A program made the translations under genes and the position numbers. From NCBI RefSeq assembly GCF_004402045.1, contig NZ_SOMG01000012.1, positions 62,001-126,000 on the forward strand: 64,000 nt of DNA, given 5' to 3'. Source of the DNA: Lelliottia nimipressuralis (GTDB lineage: Bacteria; Pseudomonadota; Gammaproteobacteria; Enterobacterales; Enterobacteriaceae). Below the pieces are notes generated by a model. The model saw nothing but the letters and a program-made list of their open reading frames with translations, had not been told where the DNA came from and ran no database searches. Below are positions 4,471 through 49,192 of the stretch, in pieces. Within the stretch, counting starts at the first letter, position 1. Every line of letters starts with the position of its first letter.

Positions 4471-4506
4471 CAGTTACTGTTCTCTCTTTTCACATGGAGG
4501 TTGCAC

Positions 4507-5827: not shown

Positions 5828-5845
5828 TTCAGTGCCCGTCTGTAT

Positions 5846-5940
5846 TGCCCGGTGGCGCTGCGCTTACCGGGCCTACAAAACAGTTACTGCATCCGAATCG
5901 TAGGCCGGGTAAGGCGAAGCCGCCACCCGGCTTTTGTTTT
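5846..5940. repeat. REP/BIME pair with T-rich tail after nfuA
   Basis: Two inverted REP palindromes (about 5846-5876 and 5900-5931) followed by CTTTTGTTTT. The second hairpin plus T-run probably terminates nfuA. The remaining 250 bases to gntT hold the gntT control region with two GntR-type operators. Confidence 0.75.
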
Positions 5941-6018
5941 CCCCCCGCTCCCCCTCTATATGTTGACCTGCGTCTCATAATTCAAATTTAGCCTCCCAGG
6001 GTGATTCTCAATCGCGTC

Positions 6019-6034
6019 ATGTTACCCGTATCAT
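6019..6034 (+). promoter_or_regulatory. GntR operator 1 upstream of gntT
   Basis: ATGTTACCCGTATCAT matches the GntR (gluconate repressor) operator type ATGTTACC-N-GTAACAT. E. coli gntT is known to have two such operators, so presence of a pair here supports the call. Confidence 0.65.
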
Positions 6035-6160
6035 TCTCGTGGGCACTCAGCATCCTTATAACAGCCGACTAAACTTAATGGTTTCGAAGGCATCAGTATG
6101 AGTGCCGTTAACACTCTGTTCCCAGTTGGGACAATCGGAATTTGTCGTTGAAACAATGAC

Positions 6161-6172
6161 GTTACCCATAAC
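6161..6172 (+). promoter_or_regulatory. GntR operator 2 upstream of gntT
   Basis: The near-palindrome GTTACCCATAAC lies 22 bases before the gntT start and about 140 bases from operator 1. That distance allows a repression loop between two bound GntR dimers. Confidence 0.6.
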
Positions 6173-6193
6173 AATTCAAAGGCCAGGTAAATC

Positions 6194-33903: not shown

Positions 33904-34953
33904 ATGACTCCTAATCCGTCCGACAAAGCAGGACTCCACATCTTATTAAAACTCGCCTGTCTGGTGGTTATCCTTGCGGGTATCCATGCTGCCGCCGACA
34001 TTATTGTTCAGCTCCTGCTGGCGCTCTTTTTTGCCATTGTGCTTAATCCCCTGGTCACCTGGTTTTTACGCCGGGGCGTCAGCCGCCCGGTAGCCATCAC
34101 CATCGTGGTCATCGTGATGCTGATTGCCCTGACCGCGCTTTTCGGCGTGCTGGCGGCCTCGCTGAGCGAGTTCTCCACGATGCTGCCGCAGTACAACAAA
34201 GAGCTCACGCGGAAGATCGTGGCGCTGCAGGAGATGGTGCCTTCCCTTAATCTGCATATCTCACCCGAACGGATGTTGCGCCGGATGGATTCAGAGAAAG
34301 TCATGACCTACGCCACCACCTTGATGACGGGGCTATCCGGTGCGATGGCCAGCATTCTGCTGCTGGTGATGACGGTAGTGTTTATGCTGTTCGAAGTCCG
34401 CCACGTTCCCTATAAGCTGCGCTTTGCGCTGAATAATCCACAAATTCACATTGCCGGCTTACACCGTGCATTGAAGGGCGTTTCCAAATATCTGGCGCTG
34501 AAAACGCTCCTGAGCGTATGGACCGGGGTCATTGTCTGGCTGGGGCTGATGCTGATGGACGTGCAGTTCGCGCTGATGTGGGGCGTACTGGCCTTTCTGC
34601 TGAACTACGTGCCCAATATTGGCGCGGTGCTCTCTGCCGTACCGCCGATGATTCAGGCATTTTTGTTTAATAGTTTCTACGAATGCATGTTAGTCGGCGC
34701 GCTGTTCCTCGTGGTGCACATGGTGCTGGGCAATATTCTTGAGCCGCGCATGATGGGGCACCGGCTGGGTATGTCGACGCTGGTGGTGTTTTTATCCTTA
34801 CTGGTTTGGGGATGGCTCCTGGGCCCGGTCGGGATGCTGCTCTCAGTCCCCCTGACCAGCGTGTGTAAGATCTGGATGGAGACCACCAAAGGCGGCAGCA
34901 AGCTGGCCATTCTGCTTGGGCCAGGGCGACCAAAAAGCCGGCTTCCGGGTTAA
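33904..34953 (+). CDS. yhhT: AI-2E family transporter YhhT
   Basis: 349-residue polytopic membrane protein of the AI-2E (TqsA/PerM) family with about eight transmembrane segments and the conserved FLLNYVPNIGAVLSAVPP motif. Substrate of YhhT is unknown. AAGGAACGCGC precedes the ATG. In E. coli K-12 the next gene is acpT; here a 14-kb aryl polyene operon lies between them. Confidence 0.93.
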   Translation: MTPNPSDKAGLHILLKLACLVVILAGIHAAADIIVQLLLALFFAIVLNPLVTWFLRRGVSRPVAITIVVIVMLIALTALFGVLAASLSEFSTMLPQYNKELTRKIVALQEMVPSLNLHISPERMLRRMDSEKVMTYATTLMTGLSGAMASILLLVMTVVFMLFEVRHVPYKLRFALNNPQIHIAGLHRALKGVSKYLALKTLLSVWTGVIVWLGLMLMDVQFALMWGVLAFLLNYVPNIGAVLSAVPPMIQAFLFNSFYECMLVGALFLVVHMVLGNILEPRMMGHRLGMSTLVVFLSLLVWGWLLGPVGMLLSVPLTSVCKIWMETTKGGSKLAILLGPGRPKSRLPG

Positions 34954-34975
34954 GCATCTGGGGTAGAACGGAGCA

Positions 34976-35063
34976 TTACTCTAAGGGAAATTTTTAGGAG
35001 TAACGTTATTCGCAAGCCTGCGACAACACTGTACGATGTACGCTGCAACATCGCGCTTGCGAA
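34976..35063 (+). promoter_or_regulatory. Structured leader of the aryl polyene operon (two inverted repeats)
   Basis: First dyad: TTACTCTAA (34976-34984) pairs with TTAGGAGTAA (34994-35003), one bulged base, 9-base loop. Second dyad: TTCGCAAGC (35009-35017) pairs perfectly with GCTTGCGAA (35055-35063), extended inward by GCGA/TCGC past a 2-base bulge, giving a 13-bp stem around a 27-base loop that contains GTAC-GAT-GTAC. The first may be the yhhT terminator. The second ends 40 bases before the first ape gene, suiting a leader RNA or operator. Confidence 0.6.
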
Positions 35064-35103
35064 GAAAACATCACAGAAACAGGTTTATCGCGGACGCGCT
35101 TAG

Positions 35104-35823
35104 ATGAAATTCACACTCTCTATTATCGACTGGCAGGCAAGAGCGCCAGGACTCAGCGATGCCGATGCATGGCAGGCATGGTCGCGCCAGTCTGAAGCCA
35201 TCGATCCCGCCGCGCCGCTTGCAAAACTGACTGACCTGCCGATGATGACTGCCCGCCGTCTCAATTCTGGCAGTAAGCTGGCCGTCGATATCGGTCTTGC
35301 GATGCTTCGCAAACATCGTATTGATGCCGTGGTCTACAGCAGTCGCCATGGCGAACTTGAACGCAACTATCGTATTCTGCAAGCGCTGGCGACGGAGCAA
35401 CCCGTCTCTCCCACCGATTTTGCGATGTCCGTCCACAATGCCGCGGTCGGCAACCTCACTATTACCGCGGGTCAGCCAATTGTTTCATCCTCGGTTTCTG
35501 CCGGTATAGACACTTTCCAGCAAAGTTTGTGCGAAGTGTTGAGTTTGCTCCATGCGGGCTACTCCCGCATTTTGCTGGTAGATTTTGACGGCGAACTGCC
35601 TGAGTTTTATCAAACCGGACTTCCGCCGCAGATGCCTGTCTGGCCTTACGCCCTTGCGCTGGTAATTGAAGCCGGAGACACGCTCTGCTGTGAAACCCGG
35701 GGCGCAAGCGCAGGTGAAGAGCCGGCGTTGCCGCAAAGCCTTCAGTTCCTGCGACATTATCTGAGCGACGCGCAGCGATTTACCCTTGCGGGCGAGCGTT
35801 TGCAGTGGCAGTGGACACGCTAA
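35104..35823 (+). CDS. apeC: Chain-length-factor-like ketosynthase half (ApeC)
   Basis: 239 residues resembling only the N-terminal half of a beta-ketoacyl synthase. The nucleophile region reads QPIVSSSVSAGIDTFQ, with Val131 where an active KS has Cys, so it cannot condense by itself. In aryl polyene systems such a protein pairs with the active KS (ApeO) as chain length factor. It opens the operon, and its stop overlaps the next start by one base (TAATG). The ape letters C to R fit this gene order exactly. Assignment rests on motif and position. Confidence 0.8.
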   Translation: MKFTLSIIDWQARAPGLSDADAWQAWSRQSEAIDPAAPLAKLTDLPMMTARRLNSGSKLAVDIGLAMLRKHRIDAVVYSSRHGELERNYRILQALATEQPVSPTDFAMSVHNAAVGNLTITAGQPIVSSSVSAGIDTFQQSLCEVLSLLHAGYSRILLVDFDGELPEFYQTGLPPQMPVWPYALALVIEAGDTLCCETRGASAGEEPALPQSLQFLRHYLSDAQRFTLAGERLQWQWTR

Positions 35824-36638
35824 TGAGCCGGTTCCTGTCCCGTATCAATCGGTTATGGCGCATGCTGATGACCGGATTCTGCTTCGCGCTGTTTGGCCTC
35901 GGCGGACTGCTGCTGTCGCTGGTCTGGTTTAACCTGCTGCTGGTTTTCCAGCGCGATCGCGCGAAACGCCGCCGACTGGCGCGACGCAGTATTTCAGCCA
36001 GTTTTCGGCTGTTTCTGGCGGTCGTTCGCGGAACCGGCGTGCTGGATTACCGTTTCACCAACCTGGACGTATTGCGCGCCGAGCGCGGCTGCCTGGTGAT
36101 AGCGAACCATCCTTCGCTGCTGGACTATGTGATTCTCGCTTCGGTCATGAACGAAACCGACTGTCTGGTGAAAAGCGCGTTGCTGCGTAACCCCTTCGTC
36201 AGCGGCGTGATCCGTGCAGCCGACTACCTGATCAACAGCGAAGCAGAAACGCTGCTTCGTGCCAGCCAGCAGCGTCTGGCACAGGGGGATACCCTGCTTA
36301 TCTTTCCGGAAGGCACCCGCACCCGCGCAGGTGAAGCCATTACCCTGCAACGGGGGGCGGCGAATATCGCCGTTCGTTGCAACCGATCCCTGCGCGTGGT
36401 GGTGATCCACTGTAGCGAACGCATGCTGGATAAACAGAGTCGCTGGTACAATGTGCCGCCCAAAAAACCTGTTTTTACCGTGGATGTACGCGAACGCATC
36501 AACATTCATGATTTTTACGATGCAAGCCAGCATGAACCTGCGCTGGCGGCAAGGCAGTTAAACCGGCATATGCAGCAGCAATTAATATCCGGTCTTCAAT
36601 CTTTGTCAGGAATAAAAGATGCAAGCGCTCTATCTTGA
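35823..36638 (+). CDS. apeD: PlsC-like 1-acyl-glycerophosphate-type acyltransferase (ApeD)
   Basis: 271 residues with an N-terminal hydrophobic helix (about 12-42) and the acyltransferase motifs NHPSLLD (HX4D) and FPEGTRT. Such enzymes transfer an acyl chain to a glycerophospholipid-like acceptor at the inner membrane. In this operon it probably helps attach the polyene or a fatty chain to the lipid anchor. The ATG at 35823 overlaps the previous stop; a frame extension to 35805 is not needed. It overlaps the next gene by 20 bases. Confidence 0.82.
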   Translation: MSRFLSRINRLWRMLMTGFCFALFGLGGLLLSLVWFNLLLVFQRDRAKRRRLARRSISASFRLFLAVVRGTGVLDYRFTNLDVLRAERGCLVIANHPSLLDYVILASVMNETDCLVKSALLRNPFVSGVIRAADYLINSEAETLLRASQQRLAQGDTLLIFPEGTRTRAGEAITLQRGAANIAVRCNRSLRVVVIHCSERMLDKQSRWYNVPPKKPVFTVDVRERINIHDFYDASQHEPALAARQLNRHMQQQLISGLQSLSGIKDASALS

Positions 36639-36876
36639 AATTAAGAATCTCATTATCTCTACGCTGAATCTGGAAGAACTTACCCCAGAGGATATCGATA
36701 CCGACGCTCCGCTGTTTGGCGACGGACTGGGTCTGGACTCCATTGATGCCCTGGAGCTGGGGCTGGCTGTGAAAAATCAGTACGGCGTAGTGCTTTCTGC
36801 CGAAAGCGACGAGATGCGTCAGCACTTCTATTCCGTTGCCACGCTCGCCGCTTTTATCCATCAACAACGCGCCTGA
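36619..36876 (+). CDS. apeE: Acyl carrier protein 1 of the aryl polyene system (ApeE)
   Basis: 85-residue acidic carrier protein with the phosphopantetheine site GLGLDSIDALEL (Ser41). It holds the growing aryl polyene or the aryl starter as thioester. The ATG lies inside the 3' end of apeD with CAGGAA in front. The presence of two distinct carrier proteins in the cluster matches the described APE type II polyketide synthases. AcpT at the end of the operon is the likely activator. Confidence 0.9.
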   Translation: MQALYLEIKNLIISTLNLEELTPEDIDTDAPLFGDGLGLDSIDALELGLAVKNQYGVVLSAESDEMRQHFYSVATLAAFIHQQRA

Positions 36877-36888
36877 GAATGACCCGCT

Positions 36889-37140
36889 ATGACAGAACAA
36901 GAAACGATTTATCAGGAAGTCTCTGCGCTTCTTATTAAACTTTTTGAACTCGCCCCTGAGGACATTACGCCGGAGGCCCGGCTTTATGAAGACCTGGATC
37001 TCGACAGCATAGATGCCGTAGATATGGTGGTTAACCTGCAGAAGAAGACGGGCCATAAAATTAAGCCTGAGACCTTCAAAGCGGTGCGCACCGTTCAGGA
37101 CATCGTGGACGTTGTGGAACAACTCCAGCGCGAAGCCTGA
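36889..37140 (+). CDS. apeF: Acyl carrier protein 2 of the aryl polyene system (ApeF)
   Basis: 83 residues; phosphopantetheine site DLDLDSIDAVDM with Ser40. It differs clearly from the first carrier outside the helix II region, suggesting divided roles (starter loading versus extension). It starts 12 bases after apeE. I cannot tell from sequence alone which carrier takes which role. Confidence 0.9.
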   Translation: MTEQETIYQEVSALLIKLFELAPEDITPEARLYEDLDLDSIDAVDMVVNLQKKTGHKIKPETFKAVRTVQDIVDVVEQLQREA

Positions 37141-37141
37141 C

Positions 37142-37717
37142 GTGCCTGCCATTCCGCTCATCCCGATACTGACGGGCCTGATGCTGCTGGCATGGCCTTT
37201 TTTGATTGGCTATGGCCTTGCAAGCCACAATTTACAGTGGATACTGCCCGTGATGGCGCTGGTGTTGCTGCTGCGTTTATATCAGGCGCGCCAACATAGC
37301 GGTCCCCTGCGCTACGTTTTCCTGAGCGTGACGCTGGCCGGGGTGGTTCTGTGCGTTGCGAGCGCGCTTCTGCACGCTCACCAGTGGGTACTGTTTTATC
37401 CGGTGGTCGTCAATCTGGTGATGCTGGTGGTCTTTGGGGGCTCGCTGTGGACATCCATGCCGATGGTTGAACGGCTGGCGCGGATACGCGAGCCCCACTT
37501 GTCTCCTGCCGGGGTGCGTTACACGCGCAAGGTCACTCAAGTCTGGTGCGGCTTTTTTATCGGCAACGGGGCAATCGCGCTGTTTACCGTGTTGTACGCC
37601 GACATGCGCCTGTGGACGTTGTGGAACGGGATAATTGCCTACATCCTGATGGGAACGCTGATGGCCTCCGAGTGGCTGGTGCGCCAGCGGGTGATGAAAA
37701 GAGAGAACGATGAGTAA
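37142..37717 (+). CDS. apeG: COG4648-type inner-membrane protein of the APE cluster (ApeG)
   Basis: About 191 residues with five to six hydrophobic segments, including one near the start and a last one around IIAYILMGTLMASEWL. Related proteins are found only next to aryl polyene-type fatty acid/polyketide genes; the biochemical role is unknown. I chose GTG at 37142, one base after the apeF stop. A GTG at 37112 inside apeF would add ten residues. The 3' end overlaps apeH by 8 bases. Confidence 0.7.
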   Translation: MPAIPLIPILTGLMLLAWPFLIGYGLASHNLQWILPVMALVLLLRLYQARQHSGPLRYVFLSVTLAGVVLCVASALLHAHQWVLFYPVVVNLVMLVVFGGSLWTSMPMVERLARIREPHLSPAGVRYTRKVTQVWCGFFIGNGAIALFTVLYADMRLWTLWNGIIAYILMGTLMASEWLVRQRVMKRENDE

Positions 37718-39059
37718 ACCCCTTCCTCTTAGCCAGTGGCTAAATGCCCCGCGTCCTGATGAGGCACCGATCGCCTGGCTCGACGAACGCGTCTGGACCC
37801 TCGGCGACCTGCGCCACGATGTCACGCGGCTGGTCGACATGCTGCGTCAGGAGGAAGGCGAGCGCTGGGCGCTCTGTTTTGAAAACGGCTATCTTTTTAT
37901 CGTCGCCCTGCTGGCGACGCTTCATGCGGGTAAAACGCCCGTGCTCCCCGGCCACAGCCGGGCTGCGCAGCTTAACGAACAGCGGGCCATGTTCAGCGGC
38001 GTCCTGAGTGACACAACGCTCGACTTCTCGGGGCGGCAGCGGTTGGTGGCTTCCACGCCGCGAACAAACAACGACTTTTCCCCCCTGCCTGCCATTGACG
38101 ATACGCGCGTGATCGAGCTTTTTACCTCTGGCTCTACCGGCGTGCCGCAGCGGGTGATTAAGCCGGTTATTAGCCTGGATCGGGAAGCCCGTTTACTCGC
38201 TGACCGGTTTGGCGAACGACTGACGGGCTGTAGCGTCGTGGCATCCGTGGTGTTGCATCACCTGTATGGCCTGACGTTTCGCGTCGTCTTACCCATGGCG
38301 CTCGGTCTATCAGTACATGCCCGTCTGCTCAACTATGCCGAGCAGCTCTCAGCCCTGTCCCACGACAAACGCTATCTTTTCATCAGCAGCCCGGCGTTCC
38401 TCAAGCGGCTGGATACGGCACTGACGCCGCCTCCCATTGCCCTGCTCTTCTCCGCAGGGGGCGTACTGCCCTGGCGAGACATCACCGCGTTTCAGAGCTG
38501 GCTCAACGTCTGGCCCGATGAAATCTACGGCAGCACCGAAACGGGAGTCATGGCCTGGCGTCACCGTCAGGATGAAACCACGCTCTGGCAGCCATTCCCC
38601 GGCGTGACGTTCCACGGCGATCGCGTGACGTCGCCGCTGATCCACGAGGCAGAAGGGATAGCGCTGGATGATATCCTGCACTTCGCGGCTGACGGGCAGT
38701 TCAACATCGTTGGACGCCGGGGTCGGGTGGTCAAAATTGAAGATAAACGCATTTCGCTCGATGAGATTGAGCAGAGGTTACTGGCGCTGGACGGCATCTG
38801 CGACGCCGCCGCGCTGGCGGTCTCGCGCCGTGGACGCCAGGCCATTGGCGTGCTGTTGGTGCTCAGCGACGCGGCGCGTTTGCACAGAGATAACGTGGGT
38901 AGAAATGCTCAGGAATCCGCCTGGCGTCGCGCCCTTCGCCCCTGCCTTGAACCGGTTGCCGTGCCCCGCTACTGGCGGATCGTCGATGAAATCCCGGTCA
39001 ACAGCATGAACAAGCGTGTGACTGCGCAGTTACAGGAGCTATTTCATGAAGATTCATGA
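37710..39059 (+). CDS. apeH: Acyl-AMP ligase for the aryl starter unit (ApeH)
   Basis: 449-residue member of the ANL (AMP-binding) superfamily. The P-loop LFTSGSTGVPQRVIKP and the adenylation motif EIYGSTETGVMAWR are present, as is a C-terminal GRRGRVVKIEDKRISL hinge. In studied APE systems this enzyme activates a hydroxybenzoate-type acid and loads it onto the carrier protein. It overlaps apeG by 8 bases and apeI by 14. Confidence 0.85.
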   Translation: MSKPLPLSQWLNAPRPDEAPIAWLDERVWTLGDLRHDVTRLVDMLRQEEGERWALCFENGYLFIVALLATLHAGKTPVLPGHSRAAQLNEQRAMFSGVLSDTTLDFSGRQRLVASTPRTNNDFSPLPAIDDTRVIELFTSGSTGVPQRVIKPVISLDREARLLADRFGERLTGCSVVASVVLHHLYGLTFRVVLPMALGLSVHARLLNYAEQLSALSHDKRYLFISSPAFLKRLDTALTPPPIALLFSAGGVLPWRDITAFQSWLNVWPDEIYGSTETGVMAWRHRQDETTLWQPFPGVTFHGDRVTSPLIHEAEGIALDDILHFAADGQFNIVGRRGRVVKIEDKRISLDEIEQRLLALDGICDAAALAVSRRGRQAIGVLLVLSDAARLHRDNVGRNAQESAWRRALRPCLEPVAVPRYWRIVDEIPVNSMNKRVTAQLQELFHEDS

Positions 39060-39399
39060 AATCGAACGCCACCAGCCCCAGCCGGAGCATCTGGAGATAA
39101 CCCTTTATCTTGATCCTGACCTGCTCTGGTTTAAGGGGCATTTTGCCGTCCAGCCGCTGCTCCCGGGCGTTGCACAACTCGACTGGGTCATGCATTACGC
39201 CATCACCCTGATGGCACCGGGCTACCGTTTTCACAGCATTCAGAATGTGAAGTTTGCCGCCCCACTGTTGCCGGACAACACGGTGACGCTGGTCCTTGAC
39301 TGGCACCCCGCACGTCAGATGCTCAGCTTCAGCTACCAGCGCCATGCGGGCAGCGAGCGCCATACCGCCAGCAGCGGGAAGATTCGCCTATGTCAGTAA
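39046..39399 (+). CDS. apeI: Hotdog-fold dehydratase (ApeI)
   Basis: 117-residue FabZ/FabA-like hotdog protein. The core GHFAVQPLLPGVAQLDW corresponds to the dehydratase GHFxxxPxxPGV motif with its catalytic His. In described systems it works with ApeP as a heterodimeric 3-hydroxyacyl-ACP dehydratase, giving the conjugated double bonds. It overlaps both neighbours (14 and 10 bases). Confidence 0.82.
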   Translation: MKIHEIERHQPQPEHLEITLYLDPDLLWFKGHFAVQPLLPGVAQLDWVMHYAITLMAPGYRFHSIQNVKFAAPLLPDNTVTLVLDWHPARQMLSFSYQRHAGSERHTASSGKIRLCQ

Positions 39400-41081
39400 C
39401 GTTCCGTCCCTGCGTGCTGATCCCCTGCTACAACCACGGTGCGATGATGGCAACGGTGCTCGCACGCCTGGCGCCGTTTGAACTCCCGTGCCTGGTGGTG
39501 GACGACGGCAGTGAAGAACACACGCGCCGCACCCTTGCACACTTAGCGGAGCAGCATCCTCAGGTCACGCTACTGCGTCTGGCGAAAAACAGCGGCAAAG
39601 GAGTGGCGGTGATGGCGGGGCTGAAAGCCTGCGCTGAGCGCGGCTTCACCCATGCGATCCAGGTGGACGCCGATGGCCAGCACGCCATTGAAGATATCCC
39701 CCGGTTTCTGGCGCTGGCGCAACGTCACCCTGATGCACTGATTTCCGGTCAGCCCGTTTACGATGACTCTATTCCACGCGCGCGCCTCTACGGACGCTGG
39801 ATAACGCACGTATGGGTCTGGATTGAGACCCTGTCCCTGCAGCTGAAAGACAGCATGTGCGGCTTTCGGGTCTACCCGATTGCACCGGTCATGCAGCTTG
39901 CCGCCCGGACGTCGCTCGGCAAGCGCATGGAATTTGATACGGAAGTGATGGTCCGTCTCTACTGGCAGGGCAATACGAGCTATTTTCTGCCGACCCGTGT
40001 CACCTACCCGGCAGATGGTGTATCCCACTTCGATGCGCTAAAAGATAACGTGCGCATCTCGCTGATGCATACCCGTCTGTTCCTGGGAATGCTGCCGCGC
40101 ATCCCCTCCCTACTGATGCGCCATCGCCCGCAGCACTGGGCGCAACAGCAGGAAGTGAAAGGGCTGTGGGGAATGCGCCTGATGTTACGCGTCTGGCAGC
40201 TGCTTGGGCGCAAGGCCTTCACCCTCCTGCTGTGGCCGGTCACGGCCGTTTACTGGCTAACCGCTCGTTCGGCGCGTCACGCATCGCGGCAATGGCTGAG
40301 GCGCGTTAAGCAGGTTATGGCGCAGCGGCAGATCCCTCAGCCACCCCGGCTGCACAGCTTTTTCCACTTCCTGCGTTTTGGTCAAGCCATGCTGAACAAA
40401 GTGGCCAGCTGGCGCGGCGAGATGCACCTTCATCGCGATCTGGTATTTGCGCCGGGCGCCAGCGAGGCGCTGGGGCTGGACGACCCTCAGGGCAAACTGC
40501 TGCTGGCTTCGCATCTTGGCGATGTGGAAGCCTGCCGGGCGCTGGCCCAGCGTGAAGGGGGAAAAACCATCAACGCGCTGGTCTTTAGCGATAACGCCCA
40601 GCGCTTTAAGCAGATCATGGAAGAGATGGCTCCGCAGGCGGGCATTAACCTGATGCCCGTCACCGACATCGGCCCGGAGACCGCTATCCTGATTAAAGAA
40701 AAACTGGATCGCGGAGAGTGGGTAGCCATCGTGGGCGACCGGATCGCCGTCACGCCACAGCGCGGCGGCAGCTGGCGCGTGATCTGGAGCGATTTTATGG
40801 GCCAGCCCGCGCCGTTCCCGCAGGGGCCATTTATCCTGGCCTCTATTTTGCGCTGTCCGGTGGTGCTGATTTTTGCCCTCAGCCAGCAGGGGAAGCTTAC
40901 CCTGCACTGCGAACCGTTTGCCGACCCGCTGCTCCTGCCTCGCGGTGAACGCCAGCAGGCGCTGCAACAGACTGTCGATCGCTATGCCCAGCGGCTGGAG
41001 CATTACGCCTTACTGTCGCCGCTCGACTGGTTTAATTTTTTCGATTTCTGGCAGTTGCCCGAGATCGCCGAGAAGGAGTAA
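39390..41081 (+). CDS. apeJ: Fused family 2 glycosyltransferase and LpxL-like acyltransferase (ApeJ)
   Basis: 563 residues with two domains. Residues about 1-245 are a GT-A glycosyltransferase (CVLIPCYNHGAM, VVDDGS, VDADGQHAIEDIP). Residues about 290-563 look like the LpxL/HtrB lysophospholipid acyltransferase family (LLLASHLGDVEACRAL, VGDRIAVTPQRGGSWRV, ending in SPLDWFNFFDFW). A transmembrane stretch lies between them near 265-285. It could build a glycosylated and acylated membrane anchor for the pigment. The fusion is seen directly; the product is inferred. Confidence 0.82.
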   Translation: MSVTFRPCVLIPCYNHGAMMATVLARLAPFELPCLVVDDGSEEHTRRTLAHLAEQHPQVTLLRLAKNSGKGVAVMAGLKACAERGFTHAIQVDADGQHAIEDIPRFLALAQRHPDALISGQPVYDDSIPRARLYGRWITHVWVWIETLSLQLKDSMCGFRVYPIAPVMQLAARTSLGKRMEFDTEVMVRLYWQGNTSYFLPTRVTYPADGVSHFDALKDNVRISLMHTRLFLGMLPRIPSLLMRHRPQHWAQQQEVKGLWGMRLMLRVWQLLGRKAFTLLLWPVTAVYWLTARSARHASRQWLRRVKQVMAQRQIPQPPRLHSFFHFLRFGQAMLNKVASWRGEMHLHRDLVFAPGASEALGLDDPQGKLLLASHLGDVEACRALAQREGGKTINALVFSDNAQRFKQIMEEMAPQAGINLMPVTDIGPETAILIKEKLDRGEWVAIVGDRIAVTPQRGGSWRVIWSDFMGQPAPFPQGPFILASILRCPVVLIFALSQQGKLTLHCEPFADPLLLPRGERQQALQQTVDRYAQRLEHYALLSPLDWFNFFDFWQLPEIAEKE

Positions 41082-41084
41082 AGG

Positions 41085-41507
41085 GTGCTGACCGATCCCC
41101 GCTTTACGACGGAAGTTGAGTTAACCGTCCCGTTCCACGACGTCGATATGATGGGCGTGGTCTGGCACGGTAACTATTTCCGTTACTTTGAGATTGCCCG
41201 CGAGGCTCTGCTCAATCAGTTCGATTACGGCTATCGCCAGATGAAGGACTCGGGCTACGTCTGGCCGGTTGTCGATACGCGTGTGAAGTACCGCGATGCG
41301 GTGACGTTTGAGCAACGAATCCGGGTACGTGCGCACATTGAAGAGTATGAAAATCGGCTGCGCATTGCCTATCAAATCTTCGACGCGCAGACCGGTAAAC
41401 GGACCACGACCGGTTACACCATCCAGGTGGCGGTCGACGAGGCCACCCGCGAAATGTGCTTTGTCAGCCCGGCAATACTGTTTGAACGTATGGGAGTGAC
41501 GCCATGA
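41085..41507 (+). CDS. apeK: 4-hydroxybenzoyl-CoA-type acyl thioesterase (ApeK)
   Basis: 140-residue hotdog thioesterase of the YbgC/4HBT class; VPFHDVDMMGVVWHGNYFRYFE carries the catalytic Asp and neighbours. It may release or edit acyl chains on the carrier proteins. The start is GTG at 41085, 8 bases after AAGGAG (41072-41077), which lies in the end of apeJ. It overlaps apeL by 4 bases (ATGA). Confidence 0.83.
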   Translation: MLTDPRFTTEVELTVPFHDVDMMGVVWHGNYFRYFEIAREALLNQFDYGYRQMKDSGYVWPVVDTRVKYRDAVTFEQRIRVRAHIEEYENRLRIAYQIFDAQTGKRTTTGYTIQVAVDEATREMCFVSPAILFERMGVTP

Positions 41508-42109
41508 AATGGTTGCCTTTGCTGGCGCTGATCTTCAGCCCGCTGGTCAGCGCCGTGACGCTGGATGAGTTGCAGCAGCGCTTCACAGAGCAACCTGTGG
41601 TGCGCGCGCACTTCGAGCAGGTTCGCACGATAAAAGATATGCCGCAGCCGCTGCGTTCCCAGGGCGAGATGCTGATCGCCCGCGATAGCGGCCTGCTGTG
41701 GGATCAAAAAGCCCCGTTCCCCATGACGCTGCTGCTGGACGACAAACGAATGGTTCAGGCGATCAACGGCCAGCCGCCGCAGACCATTACCGCCGAGAAT
41801 AACCCGCAGATGTTCCAGTTTAACCACCTGCTGCGGGCGTTGTTCCAGGCCGACCGCAAGGTGCTGGAAGAAAACTTCCGCATCGATTTTAAAGACCTGG
41901 GAGAAGGCCGCTGGTCGCTGGTGCTCACCCCAAAAACGACGCCGTTGGACAAGATTTTCGCCACCCTCGATCTGGGCGGTGCAACGTATCTGGAGTCCGT
42001 TCGTCTCAACGACAAACAGGGCGATCGCACAGATATCACCCTCAGCCGCCACCAGCTGACGCCCGCCAGCCTGACCGATGACGAACGCCAACGCTTTGCC
42101 GCACCGTAA
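41504..42109 (+). CDS. apeL: LolA-like periplasmic carrier protein (ApeL)
   Basis: 201 residues with a signal peptide (MKWLPLLALIFSPLVSA) and the LolA-type half-barrel sequence (TLDELQQRF, SGLLWDQKAPFPMTLLLDD). LolA carries lipoproteins across the periplasm; this relative probably carries the lipidated pigment to the outer membrane, where aryl polyenes are found. It overlaps apeM by 32 bases. Confidence 0.85.
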   Translation: MKWLPLLALIFSPLVSAVTLDELQQRFTEQPVVRAHFEQVRTIKDMPQPLRSQGEMLIARDSGLLWDQKAPFPMTLLLDDKRMVQAINGQPPQTITAENNPQMFQFNHLLRALFQADRKVLEENFRIDFKDLGEGRWSLVLTPKTTPLDKIFATLDLGGATYLESVRLNDKQGDRTDITLSRHQLTPASLTDDERQRFAAP

Positions 42110-44399
42110 ATCCCTGCGCCCGGCGCTGCTGTGGGCCACGCTATGCCTGGTTCTGCTGGGCGTGCTGCTGTCGCTGCTGCCCGGTGCGCGCCTTAACAGC
42201 AGCGTGCTGGCCATGTTGCCGAAACAGACGCTGGGGGCCATTCCCCCGGCGCTTAACGACGGATTTATGCAGCGGCTCGACCGCCAGCTGGTCTGGCTGG
42301 TCAGCCCAGGCAAAGATCCGGATCCGCGCGTGGCGCAGCAATGGCTGGAACTGCTGCAAAACAGTGGCTCGCTCAGTGAGGTCAAAGGCCCGATGGACGC
42401 CGCCGGTCAAAAAGCCTGGGGAGAATTCTTCTGGCAGCACCGAAATGGCCTGATTGATCCGGCCACCCGCGCCCGCCTGCAAAACGGCGGCGAAGCGCAG
42501 GCACAGTGGATTTTATCCCAGCTTTATTCGGCCTTTTCCGGCGTGAGCGGCAAGGAGCTGCAAAACGATCCGCTAATGCTGATGCGCGGCTCGCAGCTCG
42601 CGCTGGCGCAAAACGGCCAGAAAATGCGGCTGATGGACGGCTGGCTGGTGACGCAGGATGAAGCCGGAAACACCTGGTATCTGCTGCACGGCGAGCTGGC
42701 CGGTTCCTCCTTTGATATGCAGCAAACCCACCGGCTGGTGACCACCCTTAAGGCGCTGGAGGTGAAGCTCAAAGCGCACTATCCGCAGGCGCGGCTGTTG
42801 TCTCGCGGCACGGTGTTTTACAGCGATTACGCCAGCCAGCAGGCCAAACGAGATATCTCAACACTCGGTGTCACCACCCTTCTGGGCGTGCTCCTGCTGA
42901 TTGTGGCGACGTTTCGCTCCGTTAGGCCGCTGCTGCTGTGCGCCGTCTCCATTAGCATCGGCGCGCTAGCGGGCACGGTCGCCACCCTGCTGCTTTTTGG
43001 CGAGCTGCACCTGATGACGCTGGTGATGAGCATGAGCATCATCGGAATTTCGGCAGATTACACCCTGTATTACCTGACCGAGCGGATGGTGCACGGTAGC
43101 GAAAGTTCACCGTGGCAAAGCCTGGACAAAGTACGTCATGCCCTGCTGCTGGCACTCCTGACGACCGTCGTGGCGTACCTGATTATGATGCTGGCCCCCT
43201 TCCCTGGGATCCGCCAGATGGCGCTGTTTGCCGCCGTGGGGCTGAGCGCTTCCTGTCTGACGGTGATCTTCTGGCATCCCTGGCTGTGCCGCGGTTTGCC
43301 GGTACGCCCGGTTCCGGCCAGGGGTTTGATGTCGCGCTGGCTGGCCGCCTGGCGACGTAAAAAAACGCTTGCTGTTGGCCTGCCCGTCACGCTGGCGCTC
43401 CTTTCCGCCGCAGGGATTAGCACCCTGAAGGTGGACGACGATATTGCCCAGCTGCAGGCGCTACCGAAAGCGATTCTGGCGCAGGAGAAGACCATTACCG
43501 CCCTGACCGGCCAGAGCGTCGATCAGAAGTGGTTTGTGGTTTACGGCGCGTCGGCCCAGCAAACGCTGGAGCGGCTGGAGGCCTTCACCCCGGCGCTGGC
43601 GCAGGCACAAAAAATGGGTGAGCTTGCAGGCTGGCGAACCCTGCCGCTGAACTCGATGGCGCGTCAAAAAAGCGACCTTGCGCTGTTGCACAACGCCGCG
43701 CCTGCGGTAACGAACGTGCTGCACAATGCGGGGCTTAACACCGTCTCACCGAATCTGGCAGCCATGCCTGTCAGCGTGGAGGCCTGGCTTGCCAGCCCGG
43801 CCAGCGAAGGCTGGCGTCTGCTCTGGCTGACCCTGCCAGGCGGCGAAAGTGGTGTACTCGTTCCGGTGGACGGCGTCAAAAACAGCGCGGCACTCAGCGA
43901 GCTGGCCGCCCGCCATAAAGGGGTTGTCTGGGTCGATCGCAAGGCCAGCTTTGACAGCCTGTTTGCCCTCTACCGCACCCTGCTGACGGGGCTACTGTGC
44001 GTAGCGCTGGCGGTGATTGCCTGCGGCGCGATGATCCGTCTTGGCTGGCGTAAAGGGCTTATCAGCCTGGTGCCATCGGTGCTGTCGCTCAGCTGCGGGC
44101 TGGCGGCGCTGGCCGTCGCCGGGCATTCGGTTAATCTGTTTTCACTGCTGGCGCTGGTGCTGGTCCTCGGCATTGGCATCAACTACACGCTATTTTTCAG
44201 TAACCCGCGCGGCACGCCGCTGACGTCGATGCTGGCCATCACCCTGGCGATGATGACCACGCTGCTGACGCTGGGCATGCTGGTGTTCAGCGCGACGCAG
44301 GCCATCAGCAGCTTCGGTATTGTGCTGGTAAGCGGCATTTTCACCGCCTTCCTGCTGGCTCCGCTGGCGATGCCGGTTAAGAACGAGAGAAAACGATAA
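42078..44399 (+). CDS. apeM: MMPL/RND-family membrane exporter (ApeM)
   Basis: 773-residue RND-superfamily protein of MMPL type: one N-terminal helix and a large periplasmic domain, five more helices, then the same arrangement repeated (about 12 helices in all). The first helix bundle has SMSIIGISADYTLYYLTERM, the usual proton-relay helix 4. It likely extracts the polyene lipid from the inner membrane for the LolA-like ApeL. The start overlaps apeL by 32 bases, supported by the family-like N-terminal helix. Confidence 0.86.
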   Translation: MTNANALPHRKSLRPALLWATLCLVLLGVLLSLLPGARLNSSVLAMLPKQTLGAIPPALNDGFMQRLDRQLVWLVSPGKDPDPRVAQQWLELLQNSGSLSEVKGPMDAAGQKAWGEFFWQHRNGLIDPATRARLQNGGEAQAQWILSQLYSAFSGVSGKELQNDPLMLMRGSQLALAQNGQKMRLMDGWLVTQDEAGNTWYLLHGELAGSSFDMQQTHRLVTTLKALEVKLKAHYPQARLLSRGTVFYSDYASQQAKRDISTLGVTTLLGVLLLIVATFRSVRPLLLCAVSISIGALAGTVATLLLFGELHLMTLVMSMSIIGISADYTLYYLTERMVHGSESSPWQSLDKVRHALLLALLTTVVAYLIMMLAPFPGIRQMALFAAVGLSASCLTVIFWHPWLCRGLPVRPVPARGLMSRWLAAWRRKKTLAVGLPVTLALLSAAGISTLKVDDDIAQLQALPKAILAQEKTITALTGQSVDQKWFVVYGASAQQTLERLEAFTPALAQAQKMGELAGWRTLPLNSMARQKSDLALLHNAAPAVTNVLHNAGLNTVSPNLAAMPVSVEAWLASPASEGWRLLWLTLPGGESGVLVPVDGVKNSAALSELAARHKGVVWVDRKASFDSLFALYRTLLTGLLCVALAVIACGAMIRLGWRKGLISLVPSVLSLSCGLAALAVAGHSVNLFSLLALVLVLGIGINYTLFFSNPRGTPLTSMLAITLAMMTTLLTLGMLVFSATQAISSFGIVLVSGIFTAFLLAPLAMPVKNERKR

Positions 44400-44977
44400 T
44401 GAACGCTTTTTACCGCGCCGCCGCGCTGGCCGCGACGCTGCTGCTGGCAGGCTGCAGCCATTCGACCGATACTGAAGGGACGCGCCCGCAGGCCTGGCTT
44501 CAGCCGGGAACCCGGGTGACGCTGCCGCCGCCTGGCATTACCCCGGCAATCCGCTCACAGCAGTTACTGACCGGCCGGTTTAACGGCCAGACCCAGTCGC
44601 TGCTGGTTCTGCTGAACGCTGACGGGCAAAAAGTGACGCTGGCCGGGCTCTCCTCGGTGGGGATCCGCCTGTTCCTCGCAACCTATGATGGCACCGGGAT
44701 CCACACCGAGCAGTCTGTCGTTATGCCGCAGTTGCCACCCGCCAGCCAGGTGCTGGCGGATGTGATGCTCAGCCACTGGCCACTCAGCGCCTGGCAGCCG
44801 CAGTTGCCGAAAGGCTGGACGCTAAACGATACTGGCACCCGACGCGAACTGCGTAACCCCGACGGCAAACTGGTGACCGAGATTGTCTACCTGCAGCGCA
44901 AAGGTAAGCGCGAGCCGATCAGCATTGAGCAGCACGTTTTTAAATACCACATCACCATTCAATATCTGGGTGACTGA
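44399..44977 (+). CDS. apeN: DUF3261 lipoprotein (ApeN)
   Basis: 192 residues with a lipoprotein signal (AATLLLAGC, Cys19) and a DUF3261 body. The residue after Cys is Ser, which favours outer-membrane sorting. By analogy with LolB it may receive the pigment lipid from ApeL at the outer membrane. Start and apeM stop share one base (TAATG). The function is inference from order and localisation. Confidence 0.8.
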   Translation: MNAFYRAAALAATLLLAGCSHSTDTEGTRPQAWLQPGTRVTLPPPGITPAIRSQQLLTGRFNGQTQSLLVLLNADGQKVTLAGLSSVGIRLFLATYDGTGIHTEQSVVMPQLPPASQVLADVMLSHWPLSAWQPQLPKGWTLNDTGTRRELRNPDGKLVTEIVYLQRKGKREPISIEQHVFKYHITIQYLGD

Positions 44978-44978
44978 G

Positions 44979-46148
44979 ATGATTTACATTTCCGCTGTTG
45001 GCATGGTCAACGCGCTGGGCAACTCGGCCGACGAGATCGCGGCAAACCTGAACGCCGGGATAGCTCCCGGTATGCGTCCTCGCGCCGGATGGCTACAGGG
45101 ATTGCCCGATGCCATCCTGGGCGGTGTTGAGGGTGAACTGCCGCCAATACCGGATAGCCTGTCAGCGCATCGCAGCCGTAACAATCAGCTGTTGCTGGCG
45201 GCGCTGGCACAGATTCAGCCCACCGTCGAGGCCGCCATTGCGCGCGTGGGGCGCGACTGCGTGGCGGTGGTGCTTGGCACCAGCACCTCGGGGCTGGATG
45301 AAGGCGATGAGTACGTGCGCCTTTCCCTGAACGGAGAACCCAGCCCACAATGGCAGTATCCGCAACAGGAGCTGGGTGACCCCTCCCGCTTCCTGGCCGA
45401 CTGGCTGCAGCTGGACGGTCCGGCGTATACCATCTCGACAGCCTGCTCCTCCAGCGCCAGGGCGATCATCAGCGGACAGCGTCTGATCGACGCAGGACTG
45501 GTGGACGTGGCGATTGTTGGCGGTGCAGATAGCTTAAGCCGGATGCCGGTCAACGGCTTTAACAGCCTTGAGTCGCTCTCGCCGACGCAGTGCGAACCGT
45601 TTGGCCGCGACCGCCGGGGGATCACCATTGGTGAAGCGGCGGCACTCATGGTGCTGACCCGCGAACCGGATCGGGTTGCGCTGCTGGGGGCGGGGGAATC
45701 GAGCGATGCTTACCATATCTCTGCCCCACATCCGCAGGGGGAAGGGGCGATCCGCGCGATTACCCAGGCGCTGAATGAGGCGGGAATGATGGCCGATGAC
45801 GTGGGTTATATTAATTTGCACGGCACCGCCACCCCTCTCAACGATCGCATAGAGGCGAGCGTGATTAACGCCCTCTTTGGTGACCGGGTACCGTGCAGCT
45901 CCACCAAACATTTAACCGGCCATACGCTTGGCGCGGCGGGGATCACCGAAGCGGCATTAAGCTGGCTGATCCTGACCCGTGACCTGCCGCTGCCGCCGCA
46001 GGATTTTGCCCGCTACGCACCAGACGATACGCTGCCTGCCTGTGGCCTACTGCACAAGAGCGTAGCGCTGAAAAAACCGGTGATTTTATCGAACTCATTC
46101 GCCTTCGGCGGTAACAACGCCAGCCTTCTGCTGGGGAGAGTGTCATGA
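44979..46148 (+). CDS. apeO: Beta-ketoacyl-ACP synthase, main elongating ketosynthase (ApeO)
   Basis: 389-residue FabF-type ketosynthase with the complete triad: Cys156 (TISTACSSSA), His281 (NLHGTATPL) and His315 (STKHLTGHTLGAAG). In described APE synthases the active KS pairs with the ApeC chain length factor and extends the aryl starter with malonyl units. The ATG at 44979 is one base after the apeN stop; the frame continues further upstream inside apeN and is rejected. It overlaps apeP by ATGA. Confidence 0.88.
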   Translation: MIYISAVGMVNALGNSADEIAANLNAGIAPGMRPRAGWLQGLPDAILGGVEGELPPIPDSLSAHRSRNNQLLLAALAQIQPTVEAAIARVGRDCVAVVLGTSTSGLDEGDEYVRLSLNGEPSPQWQYPQQELGDPSRFLADWLQLDGPAYTISTACSSSARAIISGQRLIDAGLVDVAIVGGADSLSRMPVNGFNSLESLSPTQCEPFGRDRRGITIGEAAALMVLTREPDRVALLGAGESSDAYHISAPHPQGEGAIRAITQALNEAGMMADDVGYINLHGTATPLNDRIEASVINALFGDRVPCSSTKHLTGHTLGAAGITEAALSWLILTRDLPLPPQDFARYAPDDTLPACGLLHKSVALKKPVILSNSFAFGGNNASLLLGRVS

Positions 46149-46618
46149 GTTATTTATCCCCCAGCGACTACCTTCCTCACGACGCGCCGATGATGCTGCT
46201 GGAGCGCGTTGAGCGTGTCACCGACAGCGGCGCGGTGTGCAGCGTCACGGTCAACGGGCACGGTGTCCTTGCCCCCTTCCTGAACGCTGACGGCGATCTG
46301 CCGGGCTGGTTTGCGCTGGAACTGATGGCCCAGACCGTGGGCGTCTGGTCTGAATGGCAACGTCTGCAGAAAGGCCTGCCCCACAGTGCGCTTGGCATGG
46401 TGCTGGGTGCGCGCGAGCTGGTCTGCGGCGCAGGACGCTTTGGCGCAGGTACCACGTTGATCATTTCCATTGAACGCCTGATGCAGGATGAACGTTTTGG
46501 CAGCTTTGAATGCATCATCCGGGCAGATACCGCCCCTCTCGCCACGGGCCGCGTAAATACCTTCCAGCCCAGCGAGGACGAATTAACCTCACTTTTCATT
46601 CAGGGAGCTCCATCATGA
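46145..46618 (+). CDS. apeP: Hotdog 3-hydroxyacyl-ACP dehydratase-like protein (ApeP)
   Basis: 157 residues of the COG4706/FabZ-like hotdog family; LPHDAPMMLLERV near the start is typical of the group. It is described as the partner of ApeI in a heterodimeric dehydratase. It overlaps both apeO and apeQ by 4 bases. I cannot see by eye which of the two subunits holds the full catalytic site. Confidence 0.8.
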   Translation: MSYLSPSDYLPHDAPMMLLERVERVTDSGAVCSVTVNGHGVLAPFLNADGDLPGWFALELMAQTVGVWSEWQRLQKGLPHSALGMVLGARELVCGAGRFGAGTTLIISIERLMQDERFGSFECIIRADTAPLATGRVNTFQPSEDELTSLFIQGAPS

Positions 46619-47346
46619 CACGTTCCGTACTGGTCACCGGGGCCAGCAAAGGCATTGGCCGCGCAATCGCCCGTCAGCTTGCGGCTGACGGTTTCACCGT
46701 GGGCGTGCATTACCATCGTGATGCTGACGGCGCCAGGGAGACGCTGGATGAGATTGTTCAGGCCGGTGGAACGGGCCGTTTACTGACGTTTGACGTGGGC
46801 AACCGCGAGCAGTGCCGCGAGGTTCTGGAACAGGAAATCAGTACGTTTGGTGCATGGTATGGCGTGGTCAGTAATGCCGGGATCGCCCGCGATGGCGCGT
46901 TTCCGGCGCTCAGCGAAGAGGACTGGGACAGCGTCATCCACACCAACCTCGACAGTTTTTATAACGTCATTCATCCCTGCATTATGCCGATGATAAGCAC
47001 CCGCAAAGGCGGGCGAATTATCACCCTGTCATCCGTTTCAGGGGTGATGGGCAACCGTGGACAGGTGAACTACAGCGCTGCCAAAGCCGGTATTATCGGT
47101 GCCACCAAAGCCCTGGCCATTGAGCTGGCAAAGCGCAAAATCACCGTCAACTGCATCGCACCAGGGCTGATTGATACCGGCATGATCGAGATGGAAGAGG
47201 CCGCGCTGAAAGAGGCCATGTCCATGATCCCGATGCAACGTATGGGTCAGGCCGACGAGGTGGCCGGGCTGGCGAGCTATCTGATGTCGGACCGGGCAAG
47301 CTATGTGACTCGCCAGGTGATCTCGATCAACGGGGGGATGTTATGA
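46615..47346 (+). CDS. apeQ: 3-ketoacyl-ACP reductase, FabG-type (ApeQ)
   Basis: 243-residue short-chain dehydrogenase. NADPH motif TGASKGIG at 8-15, NAG at 87-89, and catalytic Ser140, Tyr153, Lys157 (SSVSG, YSAAK). It reduces the 3-keto group after each extension. The ATG at 46615 overlaps the apeP stop (ATGA); longer frames run back through apeP and are rejected. Confidence 0.9.
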   Translation: MTRSVLVTGASKGIGRAIARQLAADGFTVGVHYHRDADGARETLDEIVQAGGTGRLLTFDVGNREQCREVLEQEISTFGAWYGVVSNAGIARDGAFPALSEEDWDSVIHTNLDSFYNVIHPCIMPMISTRKGGRIITLSSVSGVMGNRGQVNYSAAKAGIIGATKALAIELAKRKITVNCIAPGLIDTGMIEMEEAALKEAMSMIPMQRMGQADEVAGLASYLMSDRASYVTRQVISINGGML

Positions 47347-48572
47347 CGCGTCGGGTGGTGATTACGGGGATGGGTGGCGTGACCGCCTTTGGCGAGAACT
47401 GGCCGACCATTTCACAGCGTCTGCTCGGCTACGAAAACGCCGTGCGCACCATGAATGAGTGGCGGGAGTATGACGGTCTGCAAACGCTGCTGGCCGCGCC
47501 CATCGAGGACTTCACCCTCCCGGCACACTATACCCGTAAGCGCATTCGCGCCATGGGCCGCGTGTCGCTGCTCTCAACCCGCGCCACCGAACTGGCGCTT
47601 GAGCAGGCGGGATTGATCGATGACGCGGTGCTGACGCAGGGTCAAACCGGCATCGCCTATGGATCGTCGACGGGCAGCACGGGGCCGGTCAGCGACTTCG
47701 CCTCCATGCTGATGGAAAAACACACCAATAACATCACCGGCACCACCTATGTGCAGATGATGCCGCATACCACTGCGGTCAATACCGGGCTGTTCTTTGG
47801 TCTGCGGGGGCGCGTCATTCCCACGTCGAGCGCCTGTACCTCCGGCAGCCAGGCAATTGGTTACGCCTGGGAAGCCATTCGCCACGGCTATCAAACCGTC
47901 ATGGTTGCCGGGGGCGCCGAGGAGCTTTGTCCGTCAGAAGCGGCGGTATTTGATACGCTGTTCGCCACCAGCCAGCGCAACGACGCACCGAAAACCACGC
48001 CGTCGCCATTCGATACAGAGCGCGATGGCCTCGTCATCGGTGAAGGGGCTGGCACGCTGATTCTGGAAGAGCTGGAGCACGCCAAAGCGCGCGGGGCCAC
48101 CATCTATGGCGAAATCGTGGGCTTTGCCACCAACTGTGATGCGGCGCATATCACCCAGCCACAGCGTGAAACCATGCAGATTTGCATGGAGCAATCGCTG
48201 GCGATGGCGGGCTTAAGCGCCACGGACATAGGGTATATTTCCGCACATGGTACCGCCACCGATCGCGGTGATATTGCTGAAAGCCTGGCCACTGCTGCCA
48301 TCTTTGGCGACAGGGTGCCTGTCTCTTCGCTGAAGAGCTATTTTGGCCACACGTTAGGGGCCTGCGGTGCGCTGGAAGCATGGATGAGTGTGCAGATGAT
48401 GCGTGAAGGCTGGTTTGCCCCGACGCTCAATTTAAAGCAACCAGATGAGCAATGCGGTGCTTTAGATTATATTATGGGAAAAGCACGCCAGATCGATTGC
48501 GAGTATCTGCAGAGCAATAACTTCGCATTTGGCGGCATCAACACCTCGATTATCATTAAACGCTGGGCGTAA
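47343..48572 (+). CDS. apeR: Second beta-ketoacyl-ACP synthase (ApeR)
   Basis: 409-residue FabF-type ketosynthase with Cys165 (SSACTSGS), His302 (SAHGTATD) and His336 (YFGHTLGACG) intact. It is clearly different from ApeO and is described as acting alone, possibly in priming or early extension. ATGA overlap with apeQ; acpT begins 2 bases after its stop. Confidence 0.87.
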   Translation: MTRRVVITGMGGVTAFGENWPTISQRLLGYENAVRTMNEWREYDGLQTLLAAPIEDFTLPAHYTRKRIRAMGRVSLLSTRATELALEQAGLIDDAVLTQGQTGIAYGSSTGSTGPVSDFASMLMEKHTNNITGTTYVQMMPHTTAVNTGLFFGLRGRVIPTSSACTSGSQAIGYAWEAIRHGYQTVMVAGGAEELCPSEAAVFDTLFATSQRNDAPKTTPSPFDTERDGLVIGEGAGTLILEELEHAKARGATIYGEIVGFATNCDAAHITQPQRETMQICMEQSLAMAGLSATDIGYISAHGTATDRGDIAESLATAAIFGDRVPVSSLKSYFGHTLGACGALEAWMSVQMMREGWFAPTLNLKQPDEQCGALDYIMGKARQIDCEYLQSNNFAFGGINTSIIIKRWA

Positions 48573-48574
48573 CT

Positions 48575-49192
48575 ATGTACCAGTTTGTACTGGGAAAAAT
48601 CTCCACCCTTTGCGCGGACCCGCTGGCGTCAACGCTCGCAGACAGAGCACCTCAGGGTGCCCGACATGCCTCCTGGCTGGCGGGCAGGACGCTGCTCGCC
48701 AGAACGTTATCTCCTCTCCCGCTCCCCGACATCATTTACGGCGAGCAAGGAAAACCGGCCTTTGCGAAGGGGAGTCCGCTGTGGTTTAACCTGAGCCATA
48801 GCGGTGACGATATCGCCTTACTGATGAGCGATGAAGGCGAAGTCGGTTGCGATATTGAAGTGATTCGGCCCCGACAAAACTGGCAGGCTCTGGCCAATGC
48901 CGTCTTCAGCATGACAGAACACGATGAGCTGGAGCGTGTAGCGCCGGAGGAGCAACTTTCCGCGTTCTGGCGTATCTGGACACGGAAAGAAGCGATTGTG
49001 AAACAGCGTGGCGGCAGTGCCTGGCAGATTGTCAGTATTGATAGCACGGCGCAGGCACACGCGGTCAGCCAGTTACAGATAGGCTCGCTGAGCCTGGCCG
49101 TCTGTACAACGACGCCATATACCCTGACCACCGAGTCGATTATTCACTTTGGGGCGTTCGGGGCAGAAAAATCACTAACACACCCAGAATAA
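48575..49192 (+). CDS. acpT: 4'-phosphopantetheinyl transferase AcpT
   Basis: 205-residue Sfp/AcpT-type transferase that attaches phosphopantetheine to carrier proteins. Signatures are FNLSHSGDDIALL, VGCDIEVIRPRQNW and FWRIWTRKEAIVKQRGG. It is highly similar to E. coli K-12 AcpT, whose target was long unclear. Here it starts 2 bases after apeR and is plainly the last gene of the aryl polyene operon, so ApeE and ApeF are its natural targets. Its last 53 bases overlap the 3' end of arnF on the other strand. Confidence 0.93.
   Translation: MYQFVLGKISTLCADPLASTLADRAPQGARHASWLAGRTLLARTLSPLPLPDIIYGEQGKPAFAKGSPLWFNLSHSGDDIALLMSDEGEVGCDIEVIRPRQNWQALANAVFSMTEHDELERVAPEEQLSAFWRIWTRKEAIVKQRGGSAWQIVSIDSTAQAHAVSQLQIGSLSLAVCTTTPYTLTTESIIHFGAFGAEKSLTHPE

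Follow-up and report, generated by a model that had tools for sequence, protein, structure and literature searches.

A relic of apeB upstream of a shortened aryl polyene operon in Lelliottia nimipressuralis, and a promoter-like core recurrently retained when apeB is lost

The spacer preceding the aryl polyene operon of Lelliottia nimipressuralis contig NZ_SOMG01000012.1 is, judged by its similarity to intact genes, a fossil of the methyltransferase gene apeB, and the same ~34-bp core of that gene has been kept in six separate apeB losses. The analysis covered a stretch of 64,000 nucleotides, referred to here as the window. It seems somewhat probable that the relic has been kept for a cis-acting element, most likely a weak sigma70-like promoter, serving apeC to apeR. 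A wider proposal is put forward more tentatively: in part of the Enterobacteriaceae, apeC and the genes behind it may be driven by a promoter lying within an expendable apeB, whose silent sites would be constrained by it, and deletion may have carved apeB away around this ~34-bp promoter at least six times. The origin of the inverted repeats that first drew attention to the spacer is mundane, a decayed gene; what is notable is which part of apeB so often survives. The features concerned, in window coordinates, are as follows.

33904-34953, forward strand: yhhT, a gene for an AI-2E family transporter and the upstream neighbour (open reading frame; NCBIfam NF008930).
34976-35004, no strand assigned: dyad 1, a 9-bp inverted repeat with one bulge, fully paired in the window only.
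35007-35050, forward strand: apeB relic piece 1, matching nt 518-562 of intact apeB (nhmmer, shuffles).
35009-35014, forward strand: -35-like hexamer TTCGCA of putative promoter role, also the start of the dyad 2 5' arm; nine relic representatives, drawn from six losses, all have TTCGC here.
35009-35063, no strand assigned: dyad 2, with arms at 35009-35017 and 35055-35063 from two distant apeB coding pieces.
35032-35037, forward strand: -10-like hexamer TACGAT, likewise of putative promoter role, 17 nt after the -35-like hexamer.
35047-35089, forward strand: apeB relic piece 2, matching nt 632-677 of intact apeB (nhmmer, shuffles).
35084-35103, forward strand: apeC upstream segment TTTATCGCGGACGCGCTTAG, the CGCGGACGCGC part of which also occurs in intact-apeB genomes.
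35104-35823, forward strand: apeC, for a ketosynthase/chain length factor, the first remaining gene of the operon (open reading frame; Pfam PF13723; chain length factor by the E. coli annotation).
35104-49192, forward strand: what else is left of the aryl polyene operon, up to and including the gene for the phosphopantetheinyl transferase, with apeA and apeB missing (open reading frames; family scans on part of the genes).

The two inverted repeats are present, in the sequence and in its fold, as the original prediction described them. Dyad 1 pairs TTACTCTAA with TTA-G-GAGTAA over 9 bp around a single bulged base. Dyad 2 has perfect 9-bp arms, TTCGCAAGC (35009-35017) and GCTTGCGAA (35055-35063), gains four pairs (GCGA/TCGC) past a 2-base bulge, and encloses a 27-base loop with GTAC-GAT-GTAC inside; 40 bases separate its end from the ATG at 35104. 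A scan of 34700-35300 found no intrinsic terminator, a G+C-rich stem with a T run behind it. A search of the window against Rfam 15 gave no matches at gathering scores, and scanning the spacer for sigma70-like sites at a 9-of-12 threshold gave none. The fold of the spacer (MFE -40.9, z -2.03, 6 of 200 shuffles as good) is modestly better than chance; the opposite strand folds alike (z -2.10, 5 of 200 shuffles), so that the spacer bears no RNA-specific mark. A mobile element or repeat was ruled out as its origin, since the spacer occurs once in its own genome, as itself.

Behind yhhT, E. coli TB06051 and ERL06-2503 have genes for a lipoprotein, a methyltransferase and a chain length factor, in this order, the counterparts of apeA, apeB and apeC, and Enterobacter relatives carry apeB, often together with apeA, between yhhT and apeC. 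Searching the window's own genome, rated 100% complete, gave no matches to apeB at E<=10 and a single match to apeA (E 0.7) that was judged to be chance. As a control, the same queries were run on 61 Enterobacter genomes and found apeA in 21 and apeB in 29, the latter comprising 27 full-length genes, one frameshifted and one fragment; apeC was found in 40 of the 61. Three side observations concern this locus more widely. No apeC was found in the genome of locus L028 (G006), where 3' of yhhT about 110 nt resembling the 3' end of apeR precede the phosphopantetheinyl transferase gene (by eye). The last 330 nt before apeC in L124 (G236) show an apparent tandem duplication of the spacer and the start of apeC, with a truncated apeC copy ahead of the intact one (also by eye), and in the bovine E. 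coli ERL06-2503 (L033) the genes at the apeD and apeH places, 3742-4563 and 5641-6219, are annotated with internal stops.

The spacer is common to nine of the 61 Enterobacter genomes, the window's included, with a length of 150 or 125 nt. An exact pattern taken from it matches E. mori LMG 25706, E. cloacae DSM 26481, E. hormaechei subsp. hoffmannii DSM 14563 and Enterobacter genomosp. O GN03164, and on this ground the genus of the 61 genomes is taken as Enterobacter. All nine spacers match an nhmmer DNA profile built from the 27 intact Enterobacter apeB genes, in two ordered pieces that fall within apeB nt 516-562 and 629-678, with about 70-80 nt of apeB missing between them. The window, which keeps only about 90 nt of apeB, scores 12.2 and 7.4 bits, and the ordered match was reached by none of 2000 dinucleotide shuffles for each of three spacers tested. 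Piece 1 codes for FAS..TKLYDVGG and its surroundings, where the SAM-binding region starts, and piece 2 for QIALAQENVAKAG; the end of the spacer, CGCGGACGCGC, is ordinary apeC upstream sequence of intact-apeB genomes. The spacer thus combines ordered similarity above chance with the same place between yhhT and apeC and no intact copy of apeB elsewhere in the genome. Each arm of dyad 2 thus comes from its own part of the apeB coding sequence, the two parts lying far apart until deletion joined them, and their codons already look nearly complementary in intact apeB.

By eye, GGTTTATC at 35082-35089 is similar to apeB piece 2 and also to what precedes apeC in some relatives, and short direct repeats may therefore have been the two ends joined in the last deletion. 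The relic was judged not to encode a conserved small peptide, as two 1-nt gaps, one within the core and one in the middle part, set the window apart from G029. A weak match from the family-wide DNA search, in G255 (L046), was discarded as it sits among other genes.

The relic is under constraint in the window clade. Over 35007-35103, differences from the window number 2/97 in G017, 4/97 in G016 and G023, 10/96 in G026 and G029, 11/96 in G027, 12/96 in G033 and 15/96 in G037. Four-fold sites of apeC and yhhT in the same pairs have changed by 14-21% (G017), 28-40% (G016 and G023) and 40-46% (the rest); over the eight comparisons, 2-16% of the relic has changed compared with 14-46% of the silent sites. 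Together with the recurrence of the core in independent lineages, this supports the part of the original prediction that placed a cis-acting element before the aryl polyene operon; the part that made it a two-hairpin leader RNA is not supported.

Among the 27 intact Enterobacter apeB genes, silent-site conservation peaks at nt 514-549, a peak reached by none of 1000 permutations. No silent-site conservation was seen at nt 514-549 in 34 apeB genes from outside Enterobacter (2633 of 5000 permutations), and when all 61 genes are taken the best window lies elsewhere and is not significant gene-wide (95 of 1000). The evidence from intact genes is therefore limited to Enterobacter. Codons 298-309 (nt 892-927) of apeB had the strongest silent-site conservation in the 61-gene and non-Enterobacter sets; for the 61 genes, a first scan had put codons 176-187 on top and the repeat codons 298-309. 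A second piece of apeB, nt 640-684, is constrained too: codons 214-228, part of the piece kept by L087 (G300) and L095 (G061), show silent-site conservation among the intact Enterobacter genes (3 of 5000 permutations).

Across the family, apeC was found in 130 of 392 genomes, and loss of apeB was surveyed in the 66 best-scoring of these 130, for 60 of them through newly collected regions upstream of apeC. Full-length apeB was present in 39 of the 60 and lost from 20, while one (G205) has only the part from about nt 560. The Enterobacter losses were A (the nine genomes), B (G022 and G025) and C (G050). A retention map was then made by scoring 37-nt apeB windows in 34 spacers (the 20 losses, A, B and C, and five extra genomes) against 100 simple letter shuffles each; it took six of the nine clade-A spacers and two of the four g10 genomes, left out G205 and the frameshifted but full-length G001, and contained G450, which turned out to have intact apeB and was dropped, with G236, from a later test on 12 loss groups. 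Windows starting at nt 509-537 were recognisable in 7 of 11 lineages in this map, compared with 0-4 elsewhere. In the test on 12 groups, which were defined after the map and in which G425 and G300 were placed though outside the tree, the same windows were kept in seven groups under one setting and in six under three. The observed overlap was matched by 17, 22, 29 and 1 of 20000 random circular shifts under the four settings. A check for bias towards the better-conserved parts of the gene showed that the information content of the retained stretch, nt 509-537, is below average (rank 664 of 1026), so that ease of detection alone would not account for its retention.

The independence of the losses was judged from an apeC tree of 51 genes, with 22 of the 27 intact Enterobacter included and deep nodes weakly supported. 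Sisters with intact apeB were found for A (with G011, 0.985), for C (with G014, 1.000) and for G144 (with G260, 1.000), and B is nested in an intact-apeB group (0.996); a shared single loss for A, B, C and g85 was thereby ruled out. The g42 and g72 losses were counted as one (node 0.993) and g143 as one further loss, which brings the separate losses with the core to six. Retention is not universal. Nothing recognisable of apeB remains in some genomes that have lost it; four loss groups (G366/G425, G061/G300, G362/G421 and G205) have recognisable apeB remains without the motif described below, G366 having both hexamers just 10 nt apart; G325 has the 3' half of the core only; and a motif search in G236, G363, G453, G069, G304, G370, G217, G374 and G430 found none. 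In genus g2, L087 (G300) and L095 (G061) retain apeB nt ~626-748 upstream of apeC and not the promoter-like core, and this piece may hold a second element.

The core follows the pattern ATTCGC...ACAA...GTAnGATGT. All 18 spacers with z above 4.5 at start 516 of the map, which was made blind to the motif, have TTCGC[A/C]-N17/18-TAnnAT. With a pattern that allowed a spacing of 16-20, the motif was found in 19 of the 34 spacers, G202 included; the spacing is 18 in 16 of the 19 and 17 in three (the window, G017 and G016). In G296, nhmmer at E<1 missed the core, which both the retention map and the motif search found; the motif is present too in the two E. coli apeB genes that were read. All nine relic representatives share TTCGC, ACAA and G-TA-n-GAT without a change, and the -10-like hexamer takes the forms TACGAT, TAGGAT, TATGAT and TAGAAT. 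In an ungapped comparison of these representatives with the intact consensus, identity was 100/108 for the hexamers and 119/161 for the spacer between them, a contrast mostly due to the anchoring of the rows on TTCG..TA..AT, which fixes 8 of 12 sites and inflates the hexamer figure; the four free sites agree at 28/36, much like the spacer. Identity falls off sharply on both sides of the core, to 81/180 over the left-hand 20 nt and 96/180 over the right-hand 20 nt.

Such a boundary at about -35 and -10, with a fixed length and variants of the TAnnAT type, is what a weak sigma70-type promoter would be expected to leave. The hexamers of the window, TTCGCA-N17-TACGAT, agree with the sigma70 consensus (TTGACA and TATAAT) at 4/6 and 4/6, under the 9-of-12 scan threshold, with a spacing inside the usual 16-18 nt, and the relic is the sole promoter candidate found between yhhT and apeC in the window. 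The distance from the core to apeC ranges from 66 nt in the window to about 327 nt, a variability more in keeping with a promoter than with a leader or with a translation or ribosome-binding element.

We would reconstruct the events as follows. Deletions took apeA together with its leader, and the greater part of apeB, and left two short apeB pieces fused to the apeC upstream segment, with the hairpin as a by-product of the fusion. Piece 1 would carry the TTCGC[A/C]-N17/18-TAnnAT element for the downstream genes, and selection would keep the relic on its account. In intact operons, a weak internal promoter embedded in apeB would serve apeC-apeR, and when apeB is lost the deletions that spare the element would often be the ones retained. 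As the candidate promoter lies inside dyad 2, its transcript would omit the 5' arm; a start near 35044 would give a leader of about 60 nt without it. The operon would then depend on the core element.

The main rival explanation, which we regard as rather unlikely, is that the core is an operator or activator site for a regulator of the aryl polyene genes and that polymerase starts elsewhere. The ACAA in the middle of the core is invariant in the nine relics, as invariant as the hexamers and beyond what a bare sigma70 promoter needs, and it would suit a regulator site; most Enterobacter rows also have a small dyad, ACAA-AA/CA-TTGT. However, this small dyad is broken in G144, G202, G296 and G452, while TTCGC, TAnnAT and the distance between them stay.

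The original prediction had seen in the two dyads a structured leader RNA, perhaps a switch or attenuator, and this proved largely wrong. The stretch of dyad 1 occurs in four of the nine related spacers and is absent from five. In G017, G016 and G023 it differs from the window at 3-4 of 34 sites, and base changes have partly broken its pairing in these three of the four; in the other five relatives, 10-13 of 27 sites differ with 8 gap columns in addition. Conserved stems with several compensatory changes, as expected of such a leader, were not seen: dyad 2 is kept in all nine genomes having the spacer but dyad 1 is not, and the nine pairs of dyad 2 show just one double change. An RNA hairpin or attenuator restricted to the window clade, with dyad 2 selected as a structure, can still draw on the 98.4% of pair cells that are standard pairs in the seven distinct rows, on 13 perfect pairs in G029 and on a covariation score equalled by 16 of 500 shuffles. 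This covariation is thin and at most suggestive: seven of the nine pairs are invariant, G033 has lost one, and only a single sub-branch carries the A-U to C-G double change. With arms that are apeB codons near-complementary in the intact gene, no Rfam match, and a longest perfect stem from the core arm of 7 bp in relics that keep the core outside the window clade, selection for the hairpin is improbable. Least probable is a neutral deletion scar, a functionless apeB remnant inherited by the nine genomes, which would agree with the deletion pattern and with the other parts of apeB that remain in other lineages but is opposed by the recurrent retention of one apeB segment and by a level of change roughly three- to tenfold lower than that of the four-fold sites on both sides at the same divergence.

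If the promoter reading is true, the core genes of a very widespread pigment cluster gain a candidate promoter; a literature search at title level found no title reporting one for them. It would also mean that internal promoters hidden in an upstream gene can be uncovered by comparing its independent losses, as the promoter survives. Enterobacter species with the relic, E. mori LMG 25706, E. cloacae DSM 26481 and E. hormaechei subsp. hoffmannii DSM 14563 among them, would be predicted to express the cluster and to make an aryl polyene without ApeB methylation.

Internal sigma70 promoters are known inside the upstream coding sequence of operons, and the proposed element is likewise a promoter-like site in one gene for the genes behind it. 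The difference is that the evidence here is evolutionary, with the host gene repeatedly lost and the site often what remains. Attenuators and riboswitch leaders of biosynthetic operons also place a hairpin before the operon. The window shares with them a hairpin in the spacer before a biosynthetic operon, but has no U-tract terminator, Rfam match or conserved dyad 1, and its dyad 2 consists of methyltransferase codons. The closest family of intact apeB is the FlxJ family methyltransferase NCBIfam NF053543; the intact apeB of G038 matches it over its whole length at 468 bits, below the curated cut-off of 560 bits, and is thus related and not a certified member.

The nearest characterised system is APE_Ec of E. 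coli CFT073 (apeA-apeR), in which apeA encodes a lipoprotein, apeB a SAM-dependent methyltransferase and apeC a ketosynthase/chain length factor (PMC8253772). Aryl polyene genes were higher at 37 C in another study, the passages of which give no start sites (PMC12890032). As far as the two were compared, the window has the same gene order as APE_Ec from apeC on, and differs from it in having neither apeA nor apeB. Deletion of apeA, apeB or apeK in E. coli led to immature aryl polyene carboxylic acids by HPLC (PMC8253772), and the window strain may therefore make an unmethylated or otherwise altered product.
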